Of a stretch of DNA of 64,000 bases, positions 44,816 to 52,167 are shown piece by piece. The notes beneath the pieces were generated by a model, which made no database searches, was not told the DNA's origin, and saw only the letters and a list, made by a program, of their open reading frames with translations. The translations under genes and the position numbers were made by a program. Each line of letters starts with the position of its first letter. Position 1 is the stretch's first letter. Source of the stretch: Spartobacteria bacterium LR76 (GTDB lineage: Bacteria > Verrucomicrobiota > Verrucomicrobiia > Chthoniobacterales > Terrimicrobiaceae); NCBI GenBank assembly GCA_003054655.1, contig QAYZ01000013.1, positions 124,001 through 188,000 on the forward strand. Direction: 5' to 3'.

Positions 44816-45886
44816 ATGCGCCACGAATCTCTCGCCTTTTTAAAGGAGCTGCTGACCACCCCTTCCCCCTCAGGTTTTGAAACCAAAGGCCAGCGAGTGT
44901 GGGCTGACTACGTAGGCAAGTTCGCCAAAAAGGTGCATAGCGACCCCTACGGCAACGTCTATGCAGGCCTCAATGACTCGGGGAACCCGAAGATCGTGCT
45001 GGCGGGACACTCCGACGAGCTCGGCCTCATGGTTTCCTACATCGGCGAGGAGGGCTTCATCTATTTCAAGGGCATCGGCGGCGTCGACCGCGCCATGCTG
45101 CGCGGCCGCCCGGTCCTCATTCATGGCCCCAATGGGTCCGTACCCGGAGTGACCGGCCACCTCGCGATTCACATGCAGGAGCCGGATGACCGCAAGAAGG
45201 TGCCGGAGTTTCACGAGGTCTTCATCGACATCGGGGCTGGCAGCAAGGCCGAGGCCGAGGAACTCGTCCGCGTGGGCAACCCGATCACCATGGATCACGG
45301 CGTCGTCCAGCTCTTCGGCGAGCGCATCGCCGCCCGCGGCTGCGACAACCGCATCGGCACCTGGACCGCCGCCGAGGCCCTGCGCCTGCTGGCCGAAGAC
45401 GAGAGCAAACTCAACGCCAATGTCATCGCCCTCTCGACCATCCAGGAGGAGAACGGCCTCTACGGCGCGACCATGGCCGGGTATCGCATCCGCCCCGACA
45501 TCGCCATCGTCATCGACGTGACTCACGCCACCGACATTCCGATCTGCTCCAAGGCAAAACACGGCGACATCAGGCTCGGCAAGGGTCCCGTCATCAGCAT
45601 CGGCAGCTCCAACCACCCTGTCCTCGTGGAGCGCATGATCGCCGTCGCCAGGAAGGAAAGCATCCCCGTGCAGTACGAGGCAAACCCTCGCTATACCGGC
45701 ACGGATGCCGATGCCTTCTTCCTCCAGCGGGGCGGCATCCCGTCGATCTCCCTCGGCCTGCCCAACCGCTACATGCACTCCCCCGTGGAGGTCATCGACC
45801 TGGAGGATCTGGAGGCCATGGCCCAGCTCGTCGCGAGCTTCTGCGCCGATGTGCAGGCGGGAGAGACGTTCTCGGTGAAGATCTAA
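44816..45886 (+). CDS. M42 family metallopeptidase (glutamyl/deblocking aminopeptidase type)
   Basis: 356 aa. A cytosolic dinuclear-zinc aminopeptidase that forms dodecameric tetrahedra in this family. Ligands: GHSDELGLMV (His, first metal), GCDNRIG (bridging Asp with the catalytic Asp in HSDE), QEENGLYG (catalytic Glu plus ligand Glu), IDVTHATD (Asp ligand) and RYMHSPVEV (His ligand). Full length. Convergent with the L,D-transpeptidase-like gene; the two stop codons overlap by 4 bp. Confidence 0.93.
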   Translation: MRHESLAFLKELLTTPSPSGFETKGQRVWADYVGKFAKKVHSDPYGNVYAGLNDSGNPKIVLAGHSDELGLMVSYIGEEGFIYFKGIGGVDRAMLRGRPVLIHGPNGSVPGVTGHLAIHMQEPDDRKKVPEFHEVFIDIGAGSKAEAEELVRVGNPITMDHGVVQLFGERIAARGCDNRIGTWTAAEALRLLAEDESKLNANVIALSTIQEENGLYGATMAGYRIRPDIAIVIDVTHATDIPICSKAKHGDIRLGKGPVISIGSSNHPVLVERMIAVARKESIPVQYEANPRYTGTDADAFFLQRGGIPSISLGLPNRYMHSPVEVIDLEDLEAMAQLVASFCADVQAGETFSVKI

Positions 45887-46578
45887 CGTAGCTCCTGCAA
45901 ACGGGAGCGGAGCCGGGCATACAGGTCCCGCACCCAGGGACGCTCGTCTTCCGTCTGCATGTGCTCGTCGGGGACGATGAGCAATTCGGTACGGTCCAAC
46001 TCCGCCCGCGAAACCAGCAGGAAAATCTCCTCCACTCCGGGATCGCCCACGGCCAGGCACCCGATGGACATCGCGCCGCCATGCACCATGATGTCGCTGC
46101 CGAGATCCTGCGGCGGCACGCCCTCCTCCGCGCCGCGCACGATGTCCTCGGCATTGGGATAGTTGACCCGCAGGGAAAGGTGAAAGCGGCTGTTCGGGTT
46201 CAGCAGCTCGAAACGATAAAACCCCTCCGGCACCTGCCGGTCGCCCTCCCGGAGCTTCGGCCCCGGTCCGCCGCTGGCGGCGAGAACCGGCCAGGAGTGG
46301 ACAAGTCGATACTTACCGTCTTGCGGCACGAAAAGGTCGATACGGCGCTCGTTCTTGTACGCGATGAAAATCAGCCGCTCGGGAGGATACGCCACCCCCG
46401 CCTGTTTGCAGAAGGCCCGCACCCGCGGCTCCACCGTCGGCTCGATGGCGTGCAGTGCGTCGGCCAGCGTGCGCGGCTTCGCCGGCAGGACCGCCGCAGA
46501 TCGTTGCTGGCGCAGGAGCCACCACGTTCCAAACGCGAGAGCCCCAAGGAACGCAGCGACAACCAGCAGCCTTTTCAC
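45883..46578 (-). CDS. YafK-like L,D-transpeptidase-domain protein
   Basis: 231 aa with a GTG start that overlaps the upstream stop (GTGA). One membrane anchor (LLVVAAFLGALAFGTWWLL), then a periplasmic domain. The YkuD active site is present: IMVHGGAMSIGCLAVGD, with His and the catalytic Cys in SIGC, spaced as in E. coli YafK (DpaA). YafK releases the Braun lipoprotein from peptidoglycan rather than making cross-links, so this may be a hydrolase. YERLIFIAYKNERRIDLFVP-like strands precede the site. Last gene of the putative ceramide operon. Confidence 0.85.
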   Translation of the reverse strand: MKRLLVVAAFLGALAFGTWWLLRQQRSAAVLPAKPRTLADALHAIEPTVEPRVRAFCKQAGVAYPPERLIFIAYKNERRIDLFVPQDGKYRLVHSWPVLAASGGPGPKLREGDRQVPEGFYRFELLNPNSRFHLSLRVNYPNAEDIVRGAEEGVPPQDLGSDIMVHGGAMSIGCLAVGDPGVEEIFLLVSRAELDRTELLIVPDEHMQTEDERPWVRDLYARLRSRLQELR

Positions 46579-47546
46579 AACTGCCCGGTGCGCCGGTAGA
46601 AATCCGCCGTCTCCCGCATCGTCTCGACCAGCCCGCGCTTCGCCGACCAGCCCGACCATTGATCAAAGCGACCGCCATCGACCACCCAGCGCGGCGGCCA
46701 GATTTCCCGTGCGCGATCCCGCGTAAGGCTCGGCGTCTGTGCTCGCAGCGTCGGCACCGCGTCGACCACGGCGGAGAGCAGGCGTACGGCGGGTTGAGGA
46801 ACAGGCAATGTCAGGCCGGTCTTGCCCGGCAGCACGGCGGAGGCGATCAGCTGCCAGTCTGTGATCGGCTCGGGAGCAGCCACGTACAGGCTGCGATCCG
46901 GCAGCGAATCCGCCGCCAGCGCGAGAAAGATGGCCTCCACCAGATCCTGCACGGCGATGAAGCTGTAGCTCTTCGTATGCCACGCGGGCTTCAGGCGCAC
47001 CAATCCCGCACCCATCTTGAAAAGCGGCAGCGTCGCCTGGTCGCGCGGGCCGAGAATCATCGGCGGGCGCAAAATCGTGATGGGACGATGCGGAAACCTC
47101 TCCCGGATCGCCCGCTCCATCGCGAGCTTGGACTCGCCATACCACGTGATCGGCGCATCGGCGTCGTCCTCGCTCCGGGCGGCGCGGCTTTCCGGCGTCG
47201 GGCCTCCTGCGGATTGCGACGACAGGACCACGATCCGGCATGTCTCGGGCAGCGCCTCGATGACGCGCAGCTTCCAGTCGACGTTGGTCTCAAAATACTC
47301 CTGCCGGTCGCGGGCAAACAGCACCCCCGCCCCGAGAATGGCATGGTCGGGCGCGGCCTCGCCCCACGTCGCAGGATCAGCCCCGAGCGCGACGACATTT
47401 TCCGCCGCAACTCCCTCGCCGCTCAACTGGCTCCGCAGTTTCGCCTCGGAGCGCACCGGAGCAAAAACCCTCCCATAGCCGGGAAGCGCGCGCAAAAGGG
47501 CGTTGCGGCCGACAAAGCCGGTGGCTCCCGTCAGCAGGAGGTTCAT
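46575..47546 (-). CDS. NAD(P)-dependent epimerase/dehydratase; candidate ceramide reductase
   Basis: 323 aa. Extended SDR: LLTGATGFVGRNALLRALPG (1-22, cofactor loop), VVLSSQSAGG, catalytic WYGESKLAMERA (YxxxK) and TILRPPMILGPRD. Broad annotation would be NAD-dependent epimerase/dehydratase. In Caulobacter such a protein (CerR) reduces the 3-keto group during ceramide synthesis; the position here directly after an SPT-like and an acyltransferase-like gene suggests the same task. Overlaps the gene before it by 4 bp and the gene after by 4 bp. Substrate not shown by sequence. Confidence 0.75.
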   Translation of the reverse strand: MNLLLTGATGFVGRNALLRALPGYGRVFAPVRSEAKLRSQLSGEGVAAENVVALGADPATWGEAAPDHAILGAGVLFARDRQEYFETNVDWKLRVIEALPETCRIVVLSSQSAGGPTPESRAARSEDDADAPITWYGESKLAMERAIRERFPHRPITILRPPMILGPRDQATLPLFKMGAGLVRLKPAWHTKSYSFIAVQDLVEAIFLALAADSLPDRSLYVAAPEPITDWQLIASAVLPGKTGLTLPVPQPAVRLLSAVVDAVPTLRAQTPSLTRDRAREIWPPRWVVDGGRFDQWSGWSAKRGLVETMRETADFYRRTGQL

Positions 47547-48676
47547 CCGAGGGATTTCTCAAAAATCCGCCACTTGCGCAACGGAATCCCCCCAAGCATG
47601 AGGGAATTCTCTATGATCTCGGTGTTGTTTTCCTCGATCCAGCCGAGTTCGGCGTGGCTATAGCGGGCCTTGGCGCAGGCAAACTGCTCGCGCAGCAGCC
47701 AGCCGTGCAGGCCGGTCTTGTCGCGAAAGCGCGGCGAGATACCGTAGACCACCTGGCGGCCCGAGCGAATCGGGCGGGTCTTGAGCAGCCAGAGGAAATG
47801 AAGCGGTCTCAGCCAGCGCGGGGTCTTCTTGAGCTGAATGAGGACCTCGTTGATGTTCGGCAGCGACAGGCCGACTCCGGCATTTTCCCCATCGTGCTCG
47901 GCGATGAGAATCATCTCCGGGTCCGCGATGGCACGCAGATCGTCGGCGGCAAAAAGCAGGTCGTCCATCGAGATGGGGACAAAGCCCCAGTTGCGCTCAA
48001 GCGTGGAATTGTAAACCTCCAGCACGATCTTGAGCTCCTCCTCGAGCTCCTTGAGCCGGATGGGGCGGAGCTTGAGACGCGAGCGGCGCGTGAGGCGGTC
48101 GACGATCTTACTCAGGCGCTGCGGCACCTCGAGTTTGGCCAGGGGGAGATGGAAACCGAGCGAGGCACGCACCGAGTCGTAACCGGAATCCCTCACGAGC
48201 GCCTCGTAGTAGGCAGGATTCCAGGTCAGGCCGATGAAAGGCGGCACATCGAACCCCTCGACCAGCAGCCCGCACTCGTCGTTGATGCTCGGGTTGTACG
48301 GGCCGCGCACGGAATCGCATCCCCGCTCGCGCAGGACGGCGTCGACCTTTTTGAAGAGCTCCTTCGCGGTGGAAAAGTTGTTCTCGCAATCGAAGAATCC
48401 GAAGAATCCCGTGCGGTCTTTGTAATACGCGTTGTGCGAACGGTTGATGATCGCCGCGATACGTCCCACCGGCTTCCCATCGCGCCGGGCGATGAAGGGA
48501 ATGATCTCGCCGTGGCGTTTGCTGAAGGCGGATTTCTCCGAAAGATACTTGGCAACACTGCCGGGGAACGGGGGCACGAAGGCCGGATTTTCTCGATGAA
48601 GCAGTTCCGCGACATCCTCAAAAGCCTGCCGCTCCCTGCCCGTGCGACATGGAACGATCTCTATGCTCCCCGACAT
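47543..48676 (-). CDS. GNAT-fold acyltransferase-like protein; candidate bacterial ceramide synthase
   Basis: 377 aa. Two GNAT-like halves: residues 1-190 (IIPFIARRDGKPVGRIAAII, FFGFFDCENN, CDSVRGPYNPSINDECGLLV) and 200-377 (EVYNSTLERNWGFVPIS, MILIAEHDGENAGVGLSLPN, TEIIENSLMLGGIPLRKWRI). The N-P-S-x-N-D-E segment and Gly-rich loops are the likely acyl-CoA/ACP-binding region. The family is usually annotated as hypothetical. By position between SPT-like and CerR-like genes it would N-acylate the long-chain base, the step done in Caulobacter by the GNAT-fold bCerS. Starts 18 bp after the SPT stop. Confidence 0.7.
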   Translation of the reverse strand: MSGSIEIVPCRTGRERQAFEDVAELLHRENPAFVPPFPGSVAKYLSEKSAFSKRHGEIIPFIARRDGKPVGRIAAIINRSHNAYYKDRTGFFGFFDCENNFSTAKELFKKVDAVLRERGCDSVRGPYNPSINDECGLLVEGFDVPPFIGLTWNPAYYEALVRDSGYDSVRASLGFHLPLAKLEVPQRLSKIVDRLTRRSRLKLRPIRLKELEEELKIVLEVYNSTLERNWGFVPISMDDLLFAADDLRAIADPEMILIAEHDGENAGVGLSLPNINEVLIQLKKTPRWLRPLHFLWLLKTRPIRSGRQVVYGISPRFRDKTGLHGWLLREQFACAKARYSHAELGWIEENNTEIIENSLMLGGIPLRKWRIFEKSLG

Positions 48677-48694
48677 GAACCTGACGAAACGAGT

Positions 48695-50014
48695 CTACTT
48701 GGTGGCCTGATGGTATCCGTTCTGCCCCTCTGCGGCTCCTTCCGAGCCGTTTTCCGAGGCGTCGAGACGGAAATCGAAGACATTGCGGCGACGGCCGGGT
48801 TCCACATAGGCCGGATCGTCGAAGGTGCCAAGCTCCTTGGCCAGCTTCTCAAAGATCTCGAGCACGTGGTCGAGGTCGTCATCCGTATGGGTCGCCATGT
48901 AGCTCGTGCGCACGATGGCCTCGCCATAGCGCACCGCCGGATAGATGGCCGGAGTGGCAAAAACGCCTTCCTCAAAAAGGCGCTGCGTAAACATGAACGC
49001 CTTGGCCTCGCTGCCGATGAGGATCGGCACGATGGGCGTCTGCGTGGTGCCGATCTTGAAGCCGATGCGCTTGAAGCCCTCGTGCATCTTGTGCGTATTG
49101 CGCCAGAGCTGCTCCATGCGCTCGGGCTCCTGCTGCATGATCTCGAGCGCCTTGAGCACTCCGCCGGCAACAGCGGGAGCGAGCGAGGCCGTAAAGATCA
49201 GGCACCGGGCGCGATGCTTGAGAAACTCGACCATCTGGCGGTCGCCCGCGATGAAGCCGCCCATGGAACCAAGCGACTTTGAGAAAGTACCCATGACGAT
49301 GTCGACATCGTCGTTAAGGCCGAAATGATGCACCACGCCGCGGCCCTTCGGACCGAGCACACCAAGCGAGTGGGCCTCGTCGACATACACGCGGGCACCG
49401 TAGCTTTTGGCCACCTCGAGCTGGGGCGGCAGGTCGGCGATGTCTCCCGACATGCTGAACACACCGTCCATCACGACGAGCTTGCCCGCCTCGGGGGCCT
49501 GACGCTTCAGGCGATTACCCAGGGACGATGCGGAGTTGTGGCGATACGGCACCAGCTTGGCCGGGGCAAACTGACAGCCATCGATGATGCTGGCGTGATT
49601 CTCGCGGTCGCACAGAATCACGTCACCATCCTCGGTCAGTGACGCCAGGGCTCCCTGGTTCGCAAAAAATCCGGTCGAGAAAAGAAGGACCGCCTCGCGC
49701 TGGAGGAAATCGGCCAGCGCCTCTTCCAACTGGGAATGCAGGCGGATCGTGCCGTTCAGGAGCCGTGACCCGGTGCAGCCTGCACCGTAGGCGCGGGTGG
49801 CTTCACAAGCCGCCTCGATCACGCGCTCATCCTGAGCGAGGCCGAGGTAGTTGTTCGACCCGATCATGATCTTGCGCTCGCCTTCGCACATCACGTAATT
49901 GCCGTGCGTCTCGTCGATCTGGCGAAAGTACGGATAGAAGCCCTGTGCTTTCGCGTCGGCGCTATCCCTGTAGTCCCGGCATTTCTGAAATAAATCTCGC
50001 GCCAACGTACGCAT
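48695..50014 (-). CDS. Serine palmitoyltransferase-like alpha-oxoamine synthase
   Basis: 439 aa, PLP-dependent fold type I. Active-site residues His140 (ENHASIIDG), Asp212 and His215 (VDEAHSLGVLG) and the PLP Lys246 (GTFSKSLGSMGG) have exactly the spacing of Sphingomonas SPT (159, 231, 234, 265). GAGCTGSRLLNGTIRLHSQL, and the C-terminal part with EFLKHRARCLIFTASLAPA, VPILIGSE and YMATHTDDDLDHV, look like Bacteroides-type SPTs more than BioF or KBL. Condenses serine with a fatty acyl thioester to 3-ketosphinganine. A short non-conserved tail (residues 410-439) is extra. First gene of the operon. BioF/KBL activity cannot be excluded. Confidence 0.85.
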   Translation of the reverse strand: MRTLARDLFQKCRDYRDSADAKAQGFYPYFRQIDETHGNYVMCEGERKIMIGSNNYLGLAQDERVIEAACEATRAYGAGCTGSRLLNGTIRLHSQLEEALADFLQREAVLLFSTGFFANQGALASLTEDGDVILCDRENHASIIDGCQFAPAKLVPYRHNSASSLGNRLKRQAPEAGKLVVMDGVFSMSGDIADLPPQLEVAKSYGARVYVDEAHSLGVLGPKGRGVVHHFGLNDDVDIVMGTFSKSLGSMGGFIAGDRQMVEFLKHRARCLIFTASLAPAVAGGVLKALEIMQQEPERMEQLWRNTHKMHEGFKRIGFKIGTTQTPIVPILIGSEAKAFMFTQRLFEEGVFATPAIYPAVRYGEAIVRTSYMATHTDDDLDHVLEIFEKLAKELGTFDDPAYVEPGRRRNVFDFRLDASENGSEGAAEGQNGYHQATK

Positions 50015-50155
50015 GAAAAGGATTAGATAAAGTTACAGGATCAGGCTCTTTGTAAATCTTTTTCCATGGGAGCCAACTGGTGGCACCGCGAGGCAAAAGG
50101 CATCTCAGCGCCTATGGGAGAGGTACTTACAGCGTCCATAACGACTCTTCCAGCT

Positions 50156-50611
50156 TTATCGCACAGGAACCTGGAGAGGGGTGGGATTGGCCAGCATGAT
50201 CGATATGGCCACAAAATAGAGGGTCAGGCCTGCCAGCAGGAGCCAGCCGCCGACCGCCACGGCCCGGGTCTTGGCATTGCGTGTGGCCACCATTCGCCCG
50301 AGCGATGCTACCGGATCTTCGGAAAGATGCGCGGTCAGCCAATCAATCAACATCACCCGCCAGACCACCCAGCCCGCTCCGAGCAAGGCCACCGCCAGAC
50401 CCGCAATGACAAAAATCTGCGCCGCCACATTCGTCCCGGCGATCAGCCGACCGGAGAAGCCCGTCACTGTCACAATAATGCTCGCCATGCCGACGACCGA
50501 CTGGGCGCGTCCATACATGACGTCGAATTGCTTTTGAATGATATCAAAAGCCATCCGGGTATCGTTGTCCGCCAGCTTGAGGATGGCGGCGGCTTCTTCG
50601 ACGGGTGACAT
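50156..50611 (-). CDS. Small membrane protein of unknown function
   Basis: 151 aa from the ATG at 50611. A soluble helical start (SPVEEAAAILKLADNDTRMA, FDIIQKQFDVMYGRAQSV) is followed by three transmembrane helices (VVGMASIIVTVTGFSG, IFVIAGLAVALLGAGWVVWR, AVAVGGWLLLAGLTLYFVAI). The arrangement recalls Pycsar/CBASS-type small effectors with a cytoplasmic helix, but there is no cyclase gene next to it. Between an SDR gene and the SPT gene on the same strand. Confidence 0.6.
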   Translation of the reverse strand: MSPVEEAAAILKLADNDTRMAFDIIQKQFDVMYGRAQSVVGMASIIVTVTGFSGRLIAGTNVAAQIFVIAGLAVALLGAGWVVWRVMLIDWLTAHLSEDPVASLGRMVATRNAKTRAVAVGGWLLLAGLTLYFVAISIMLANPTPLQVPVR

Positions 50612-50679
50612 GGAGTTTCCCCATATAACCCGCCAAGAATCCGGGGCCAAGCCCCAACTTTGGCCGCAACAGGCGCGGC

Positions 50680-51474
50680 CTACAAAATCGACCGCACCAT
50701 CCCGCCTTCCGCCCGCACGGCTGCGCCATTCGTCGCCGCCGCCAGCGGGCTGGCCAGATAGGCCACCGTGGTCGCCACCTCATGCACGGTGGCGAAGCGC
50801 TGGATGAGCGAACTCGGCCGCACCGTCGCGAAGAAATCCTTCTCCACCTCGCCCACGGTCTTGCCTTCCTTGTCCGCCATGTCGGCGATGAATTTCTCCA
50901 CACCCTCCGAGCGCGTCGGGCCGGGCAGGACGGAGTTCACCGTCACCCCGGTGCCGATCGTCGTCTCGGCCAGGCCGCGAGCCAGCGCGATCTGCATCGT
51001 CTTGGTCACGCCATAGTGAATCATCTCCACCGGGATGTTCACCCCCGACTCGCTGGCGAGAAAGAGGATGCGGCCCCAGTTGGCCTTCTTCATCGCGGGC
51101 AGATAGTGACGGCAAAGACGCACGCCGCTCAGGAAATTTGTCTCGATGATCGAGAGCCAGTCCTCGTCGGTGATATCCTCAAAATTCTTCGGCCCGTAGA
51201 TGCCGAGATTATTGACCAGCACGTCGACTGTTGGGAATCGCTGGATCGTCTGCTCCGCAGCCCCCGCTGTCGCCAGATCGGCCGCAAGGGATTCCACGCG
51301 CGCCTGCGGGTATTTCTTCAGGATCGCGGCCGTCGCGGCGGCAACACGCTCCTCCGAGCGGCCATTGACGATCACCCGCGCCCCCTCGGCGGCAAACACC
51401 TCGGCTATCGCAAACCCGATTCCCGCCGTCGACCCCGTCACCAGCACCAGCTTGTCTTGAAGCAGCAAATCCAT
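50680..51474 (-). CDS. SDR family oxidoreductase
   Basis: 264 aa from the ATG at 51474. Classical SDR: cofactor loop LVTGSTAGIGFAIAEVFA (about 10-27), NNLGIYGP, catalytic Ser in FLASESGVN and HYGVTK (YxxxK), and VLPGPTRSEG. Close to 3-oxoacyl-reductase-like enzymes; the substrate is open. As it lies upstream of the SPT gene on the same strand it is an alternative candidate for 3-ketosphinganine reduction. Gaps of 68 and 141 bp separate it from the SPT operon, so it may have its own promoter. Confidence 0.85.
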   Translation of the reverse strand: MDLLLQDKLVLVTGSTAGIGFAIAEVFAAEGARVIVNGRSEERVAAATAAILKKYPQARVESLAADLATAGAAEQTIQRFPTVDVLVNNLGIYGPKNFEDITDEDWLSIIETNFLSGVRLCRHYLPAMKKANWGRILFLASESGVNIPVEMIHYGVTKTMQIALARGLAETTIGTGVTVNSVLPGPTRSEGVEKFIADMADKEGKTVGEVEKDFFATVRPSSLIQRFATVHEVATTVAYLASPLAAATNGAAVRAEGGMVRSIL

Positions 51475-51528: not shown

Positions 51529-52167
51529 CTATTCGCGGCGGCGACGCCAGAGAACGACGGCTGCCGCCAGTCCCATCCCCGCCAGGGCGAGCGTACCGGG
51601 CTCCGGCACCGCATTTACCTGGATGTTGTCGACATCCATCGTATCCACCACCGCCACCACCGTGGAAAAGCTGATACGGATCGACGCATTGGAGAGTCCA
51701 TCCAGTTCCCCGAAGGTGAACTTGTGGGAGATCACCGAGTAAGAAGTCGTCGGCTTGGGCAGATTGGAAGATACCCACTGCGAGCCGTTCCAGTAATCAA
51801 TGGTGAAGGTATCCTCGAGCTGGAACCCTGGATTGCTCTTCACCGCAAAAGAAATTTCCGGATTCACCAGATTCGTAAAATCCAGGTTGGAAAGCGTGAT
51901 GTGGCCGACCTCCACCACCGTCGCGAGGTTGAGAAAATGGAGCGACGCACCGGGCGCATAGCCGGACAGCGCGTTCAACTCCGTGCCCGTGCCCCAGCCC
52001 ACGTACTCCACACCCAGGCTCGCCACCACGACGGACAAACTGCCGGACGTCCCGGCGCTCCGGTTCAGAGTGGAATTCAGATCCCAATACCCCACAAGCG
52101 TTTCCGCGCGAGCGGAGATTGTGGCAACAAACAAGACAACGGCAGCAGCAAACAACCCCTTAACCAT
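51529..52167 (-). CDS. PEP-CTERM protein
   Basis: 212 aa from the ATG at 52167. Signal peptide VKGLFAAAVVLFVATISARA, mature from ETLVGYWDLN. The body is a beta-sandwich of about 160 residues with the pattern of choice-of-anchor or LamG-like domains (FTFGELDGLSNASIRISFST, MDVDNIQVNA). Ends VPEPGTLALAGMGLAAAVVL followed by WRRRRE, a complete PEP-CTERM exosortase signal. Surface or matrix protein. Divergent from the PerR-like gene. Confidence 0.85.
   Translation of the reverse strand: MVKGLFAAAVVLFVATISARAETLVGYWDLNSTLNRSAGTSGSLSVVVASLGVEYVGWGTGTELNALSGYAPGASLHFLNLATVVEVGHITLSNLDFTNLVNPEISFAVKSNPGFQLEDTFTIDYWNGSQWVSSNLPKPTTSYSVISHKFTFGELDGLSNASIRISFSTVVAVVDTMDVDNIQVNAVPEPGTLALAGMGLAAAVVLWRRRRE

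Follow-up and report, generated by a model that had tools for sequence, protein, structure and literature searches.

The closest described counterparts of the locus reported here are the ceramide genes of Caulobacter crescentus, which encode a serine palmitoyltransferase (SPT; spt, CC_1162), a bacterial ceramide synthase (bCerS; bcerS or aca, CC_1154) and a ceramide reductase (CerR; cerR or epi, CC_1164). We examined a 64,000-nucleotide stretch of the genome of Spartobacteria bacterium LR76 (contig QAYZ01000013.1 of assembly GCA_003054655.1, positions 124,001 to 188,000; hereafter the window), in which four co-directional minus-strand open reading frames (ORFs) within 45883–50014 encode, in order, an SPT-like, a GNAT-like, an epimerase-like and a YafK-like protein. 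The first three belong to the same enzyme families as the Caulobacter proteins, a link that runs through E. coli counterparts in PMC9386255, where yghO (ECD_02850) is given alongside CC_1154 as an acyl-CoA N-acyltransferase, 'aca' (papers cited by PMC number are drawn on in extract throughout). In contrast to Caulobacter, the window trio forms one tight operon with yafK added, its CerR seemingly has no signal peptide, and no counterpart of the acyl-ACP synthetase AasR was found. We consider it highly probable that the four genes include a bacterial ceramide-backbone operon. What the analysis shows directly is the identity of the genes by homology, the fold predicted for bCerS, synteny and overlaps that have been conserved, and purifying selection.

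Two further kinds of described locus are useful for comparison. The E. coli yghO cluster (L039) holds an SPT, an acyl carrier protein (ACP), an epimerase, a fatty acyl-AMP ligase and YghO, the gene for the last lying on the opposite strand; compared with the proteins of the window, its SPT is 35.8%, its bCerS 28.8% and its CerR 25.3% identical, and the ACP and acyl-AMP ligase set this cluster apart. In Streptomyces sp. NBC_01001 and in Rubrobacter radiotolerans, SPT-GNAT-reductase trios have the order and direction seen in the window, whereas their downstream genes differ, encoding a condensation-domain protein and an LTA synthase family protein and no YafK. For the fourth gene the described relative is E. 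coli YafK/DpaA (LdtF), a peptidoglycan-lipoprotein amidase that hydrolyses the bond between peptidoglycan and lipoprotein (PMC11449479; PMC13400389).

The three putative ceramide enzymes

The first protein (P0001) ranked highest against the Bacteroidota-type SPT model of NCBIfam (493.2 bits), followed by a BioF/Kbl-family model of general scope (418), a further SPT model (403), bioF (386) and glycine C-acetyltransferase (381); it stays under the cut-off of every one of these models. Against solved structures, the Sphingobacterium-type SPT scored 401 bits, BioF/KBL 309–310, the S. wittichii SPT 296 and cysteate acyltransferase 237. In a 33-row synthase tree, P0001 and all six known SPT rows fell into a 22-row set with 98/94 support; all four BioF/Kbl rows were outside it, including the same genome's synthase C11, which paired with E. 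coli BioF. This tree has several long branches, the branch of BioF joins that of the C11 paralog, and the known-SPT rows alone are joined weakly (75/58). The preliminary description of this DNA had allowed that the first enzyme might group with BioF/KBL in a phylogeny; it grouped with the known SPTs instead, and a BioF/Kbl identity for P0001 was rejected on this split. The Sphingomonas SPT spacing of the catalytic residues, also pointed out there, is borne out by the stretch from His140 to Lys246, which aligns without gaps with S. wittichii SPT. The conserved residues His140, Asp212, His215, Lys246 and Arg369 (the pyridoxal-phosphate lysine, the stacking His, and Asp, His and Arg) are not diagnostic for SPT, since they are also present in BioF and Kbl.

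The tree's SPT set did not take in seven more distant verrucomicrobial SPT-like rows. At four loci of another verrucomicrobial family (L047, L049, L050 and L051), an SPT-like synthase from outside the set adjoins a bCerS-family gene and perhaps makes a different oxoamine product.

The second protein (P0002) had no match in Pfam or NCBIfam, and none in the PDB in a single-sequence search. E. coli YghO aligned with it over its full length (residues 5–376, tblastn, at the identity given above), and bCerS profiles built from seven members of other phyla and from 12 verrucomicrobial members matched one another with a probability of 100% (E 2.7e-84, 371 columns). The AlphaFold model of P0002, made with 51 sequences, reached a mean pLDDT of 92.2 and a pTM of 0.90, and its top Foldseek matches were tandem GNAT proteins (E 1.2e-12). 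Alignment with VIA-align gave a Z of 23.3 against a glucosamine N-acetyltransferase of tandem-GNAT build (root-mean-square deviation 3.2, 296 aligned) and a Z of about 16 against N-myristoyltransferases, which use fatty acyl-CoA. Sequence, profile and predicted fold together support P0002 as a member of the YghO/bCerS family, though a fold proves no substrate. It had been considered that the 377-aa protein could prove unrelated to bCerS; what was found is a sequence relative of YghO/bCerS with a confident tandem-GNAT model. A scan of viral contigs with P0002 gave no relative. The window's own genome has a second bCerS-family gene (L042, G000:C12, 7231–8346) whose product shows about 51% identity; the 15 kb examined around it gave a match to neither SPT nor CerR.

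The third protein (P0003) is an extended short-chain dehydrogenase/reductase by Pfam. A CerR profile was made from six SPT-neighbour reductases (E. coli, Klebsiella, Sphingomonas, Streptomyces, Rubrobacter and Aureispira), and P0003 ranked first of the 20 matches to it in the genome, at 152.4 bits against 95.0 for the next; compared with one another, the two CerR-family profiles aligned at E 1.3e-53. The nucleotide-binding motif of P0003, read by eye, begins at residue 6, and a cleaved signal peptide is therefore unlikely.

Recurrence of the trio and layout of the operon

An SPT of this type, at no less than 63% identity, was found in 25 of 57 genomes of the order (the window's own included), with one partial copy in addition. 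A synteny survey had been proposed when the locus was first described, and its outcome favours the trio: among the order's 24 SPT loci beyond the window, bCerS adjoins SPT in 23 and CerR is in the cluster in 17, while YafK is present in one (G230), all by tblastn and all to be read as floors because some contigs end near the genes. The codon-usage gene caller missed a bCerS in G213 that tblastn detects. In G125, CerR is not beside SPT, and a 430-bit CerR match lies on another contig.

To look across phyla, we took the best 80 of 532 bCerS-like loci in named genomes; at E ≤ 1e-5 in the stretch examined, these hold SPT in 46 cases, CerR in 32, both in 28 and YafK in none. No record among the 80 bears the name Caulobacter. 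By record title, the SPT-linked loci in this set come from Verrucomicrobiota, Bdellovibrionota, Gemmatimonadota, Bacteroidota (including Mucilaginibacter), Elusimicrobiota, Planctomycetota, Acidobacteriota and Actinomycetota, and the closest named bCerS records in it are those of Spartobacteria, Terrimicrobiaceae and a Chthoniobacter metagenome-assembled genome (MAG). A 99-row bCerS tree places the window protein in a well-supported set of nine rows, eight of which are SPT-linked. Since clusters of SPT, bCerS and CerR are found repeatedly, within the order as well as in other phyla, the trio is of an already known kind.

Two loci outside Verrucomicrobiota by title, one from Bdellovibrionales (L178, 4776–8111) and one from Deltaproteobacteria (L179, 79–3414), carry the trio with an SPT 68% identical to the window's and sit beside verrucomicrobial rows in the bCerS tree, which points either to a horizontal transfer of the genes or to misbinned MAGs. 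In one family (genus g124), ABC exporter-type and glycosyltransferase-like genes precede SPT-bCerS-CerR (L138, 113–11591; L137, 8235–17986), an arrangement that suggests a glycosylated sphingolipid and its export. Nothing beyond the trio was common to the order among the neighbours in the loci looked at.

In the window itself, the four ORFs, their positions, the 18 bp between SPT and bCerS and the 4-bp overlaps at bCerS-CerR and at CerR-YafK are all as first described (Table 1). The start of yafK could be the GTG at 46578 or, as in the ORF list, an upstream ATG at 46659 (258 aa); the GTG is the better reading because G230, G245 and also G246, a more distant genome, have the same GTGA overlap. 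When the genus's three genomes are compared, SPT has a dN/dS of 0.008–0.031, bCerS of 0.041–0.063, CerR of 0.067–0.116 and YafK of 0.151–0.175, and these are therefore maintained genes, not chance frames.

Table 1. Genes of the putative ceramide operon in the window
Gene product	Position	Strand	Basis and remarks
SPT-like alpha-oxoamine synthase (P0001, 439 aa)	48695–50014	−	First gene of the operon; NCBIfam, PDB matches, tree
Tandem-GNAT acyltransferase, YghO/bCerS family, putative ceramide synthase (P0002, 377 aa)	47543–48676	−	YghO match, profile-profile comparison, model, fold
CerR-like extended short-chain dehydrogenase, putative keto-ceramide reductase (P0003, 323 aa)	46575–47546	−	CerR profile search, profile-profile comparison
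YafK/DpaA-family protein (P0004, 231 aa, GTG start), hydrophobic segment at N-terminus	45883–46578	−	NCBIfam, His/Cys, kept overlap

A 151-aa frame at 50156–50611, which precedes SPT and shares its strand, has no Pfam match and is found in the same place in G230 and G245 at 97% identity. Further upstream (51529–52095, minus strand) lies a gene whose product carries a PEP-CTERM sorting motif at its C-terminus. A sigma-70-like promoter was not found on the minus strand of 45600–50800, a result of little weight for this organism, and no tRNA lies within the window.

A YafK-family gene at the end of the operon

The fourth protein (P0004) matched the NCBIfam model LdtF_DpaA_YafK at 88.5 bits (E 3.6e-25), below the equivalog cut-off of 365, and PDB entry 8ikr_A at 80 bits. 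The YkuD-type catalytic residues His166 and Cys174, which it has in common with E. coli YafK/DpaA, are invariant in all five proteins aligned. These matches indicate a member of the YafK/DpaA family, and since the score is far under the cut-off, the substrate of P0004 may differ from that of DpaA.

At E ≤ 1e-20, YafK was detected in 5 of 26 genomes of the family and stands directly after CerR in four of the five (G000, G230, G245 and G246), that is, in all three genomes of the window's genus and in one of two YafK-bearing genomes of the sister genus. In G221, YafK is on another contig. The GTGA overlap of CerR and YafK is identical in the four genomes, and this coupling is kept across two genera while YafK has diverged to 49% identity in G246. 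That genome, with the order SPT-bCerS-bCerS-CerR-YafK, rules out that yafK is confined to the window's own genus. Its two bCerS-family proteins (L255, G246:C379, 8693–10991) are encoded in tandem between SPT and CerR, with YafK after, and are 69.9% and 56.7% identical to P0002; the pair possibly serves two acyl chain lengths.

Outside the family the picture is different. None of 10 YafK loci examined there (of 16 such genomes, some contigs being short) holds any gene of the trio. In the order as a whole, YafK was detected in 4 of the 26 genomes that have SPT and in 15 of the 31 that lack it (Fisher p 0.011, in the direction of exclusion), and at E ≤ 1e-20 in 3 of 26 and 7 of 31, respectively (p 0.32), both comparisons being uncorrected for kinship. 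We therefore rejected a general partnership of YafK with sphingolipid synthesis outside this one family, given also its absence from the 80 cross-phylum loci.

We lean towards regarding YafK as a passenger that shares a transcript with the lipid genes in one lineage and has no functional relation to them. Its absence from the cross-phylum set, the tendency towards exclusion in the order, the ten loci without the trio and the separate contig in G221 all favour this, while the GTGA overlap that is the same in four genomes despite the divergence of the G246 protein argues against it. It is rather unlikely, in our estimate, that the ceramide operon of this family is truly coupled to envelope architecture, with a YafK-type amidase from the same transcript either loosening tethers between the outer membrane and peptidoglycan as sphingolipid enters the outer membrane or acting directly on a sphingolipid amide. 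The preliminary description had linked sphingolipid synthesis to lipoprotein attachment through this gene, a wording that finds no support here: the known function of E. coli YafK/DpaA is detachment, not attachment, a yafK next to the trio is confined to one family as far as seen, and YafK does not track SPT in the order. A functional link between YafK and sphingolipid is possible. We picture P0004 as a translationally coupled accessory protein of the lineage; most likely it is an envelope amidase of the periplasm whose expression accompanies the synthesis of outer-membrane lipid and which stands outside the steps of ceramide synthesis.

The proposed pathway and its alternatives

The reading of the locus as a ceramide operon, put forward in the preliminary description, has gained support from the SPT tree, the bCerS family match, the top rank of P0003 for CerR and the recurrence of the trio. 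The substrates, products, step order and acyl donor, along with any role of YafK, are inferred. The SPT would form 3-ketosphinganine by condensing serine with the thioester of a long-chain acyl group, probably acyl-CoA; the tandem-GNAT bCerS would N-acylate this product, and CerR would then reduce the keto group to give dihydroceramide, the order of steps being taken from the Caulobacter model. The Rhodobacterial pathway, a five-gene system, uses a dedicated ACP (AcpR, encoded beside spt) and an acyl-ACP synthetase (AasR) (PMC9386255). Neither the four genes nor the neighbours called around them include an ACP gene, a search for AcpR not having extended to the remainder of the genome, and the acyl donor of the SPT is presumably acyl-CoA or a housekeeping carrier.

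Several observations weigh against this reading. P0001 reaches the curated cut-off of no SPT model in NCBIfam (493.2 bits against 640 for the best), which is why we call it SPT-like, and its second-ranked model is the general BioF/Kbl-family one. The bCerS-family paralog on C12 fits the family profile equally (268.6 against 267.3 bits), and because of this, membership in the bCerS family leaves the substrate unfixed. No SPT was seen in the examined stretch of 34 of the best 80 of 532 bCerS-like loci, and no AasR counterpart was found in the genome, where the matches were short and partial (best 43.5 bits over about 72 residues).

Within a ceramide pathway, the steps could follow a eukaryote-like order, in which 3-ketosphinganine is reduced first and N-acylated second. 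Bacteroides BT_0972 reduces 3-ketosphinganine directly (PMC9278070), and P0003, in which a cleaved signal peptide is unlikely, contrasts with the CerR of Caulobacter, which is reported to be periplasmic (PMC11087976); however, Caulobacter without cerR accumulates oxidised ceramide (PMC11087976), and we regard the eukaryote-like order as the less probable of the two. There is a small chance that the product of the trio resembles a sphingolipid but derives from a different amino acid, being either a 1-deoxyceramide from alanine or a capnine-type sulfonolipid from cysteate. The same enzyme superfamily is involved, cysteate acyltransferase is among the PDB matches of P0001, and bacterial 1-deoxyceramides and sulfono-1-deoxyceramides have been reported (PMC11334938), but the SPT structure scored far higher (401 against 237 bits) and the best NCBIfam model is an SPT. 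Very improbable is a BioF/Kbl-type synthase in an operon unconnected with sphingolipids, for which the bioF and glycine C-acetyltransferase scores and the shared catalytic residues could be cited, and which the tree split, with the genome's BioF-like paralog on the other side, and the co-conserved bCerS and CerR neighbours contradict.

Verrucomicrobiota are already listed among likely sphingolipid producers, with 22 MAGs encoding Spt-like proteins (PMC11334938). By title and the start of the abstract, no paper on verrucomicrobial sphingolipids and none on the topic for Chthoniobacter was found, and nothing that joins YafK and sphingolipid, in searches that left most subscription papers outside. 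As far as these reach, the yafK-ended operon in one family and the tandem bCerS pair within the operon of G246 are new. If the ceramide reading is true, many members of this verrucomicrobial order produce ceramides from a small number of closely packed genes, and this would be relevant to reading environmental sphingolipid data and to tracing the spread of bacterial ceramide synthesis. The yafK coupled through GTGA gives a concrete and testable hint that one lineage may adjust the sphingolipid of its outer membrane and the tethering of that membrane in concert.

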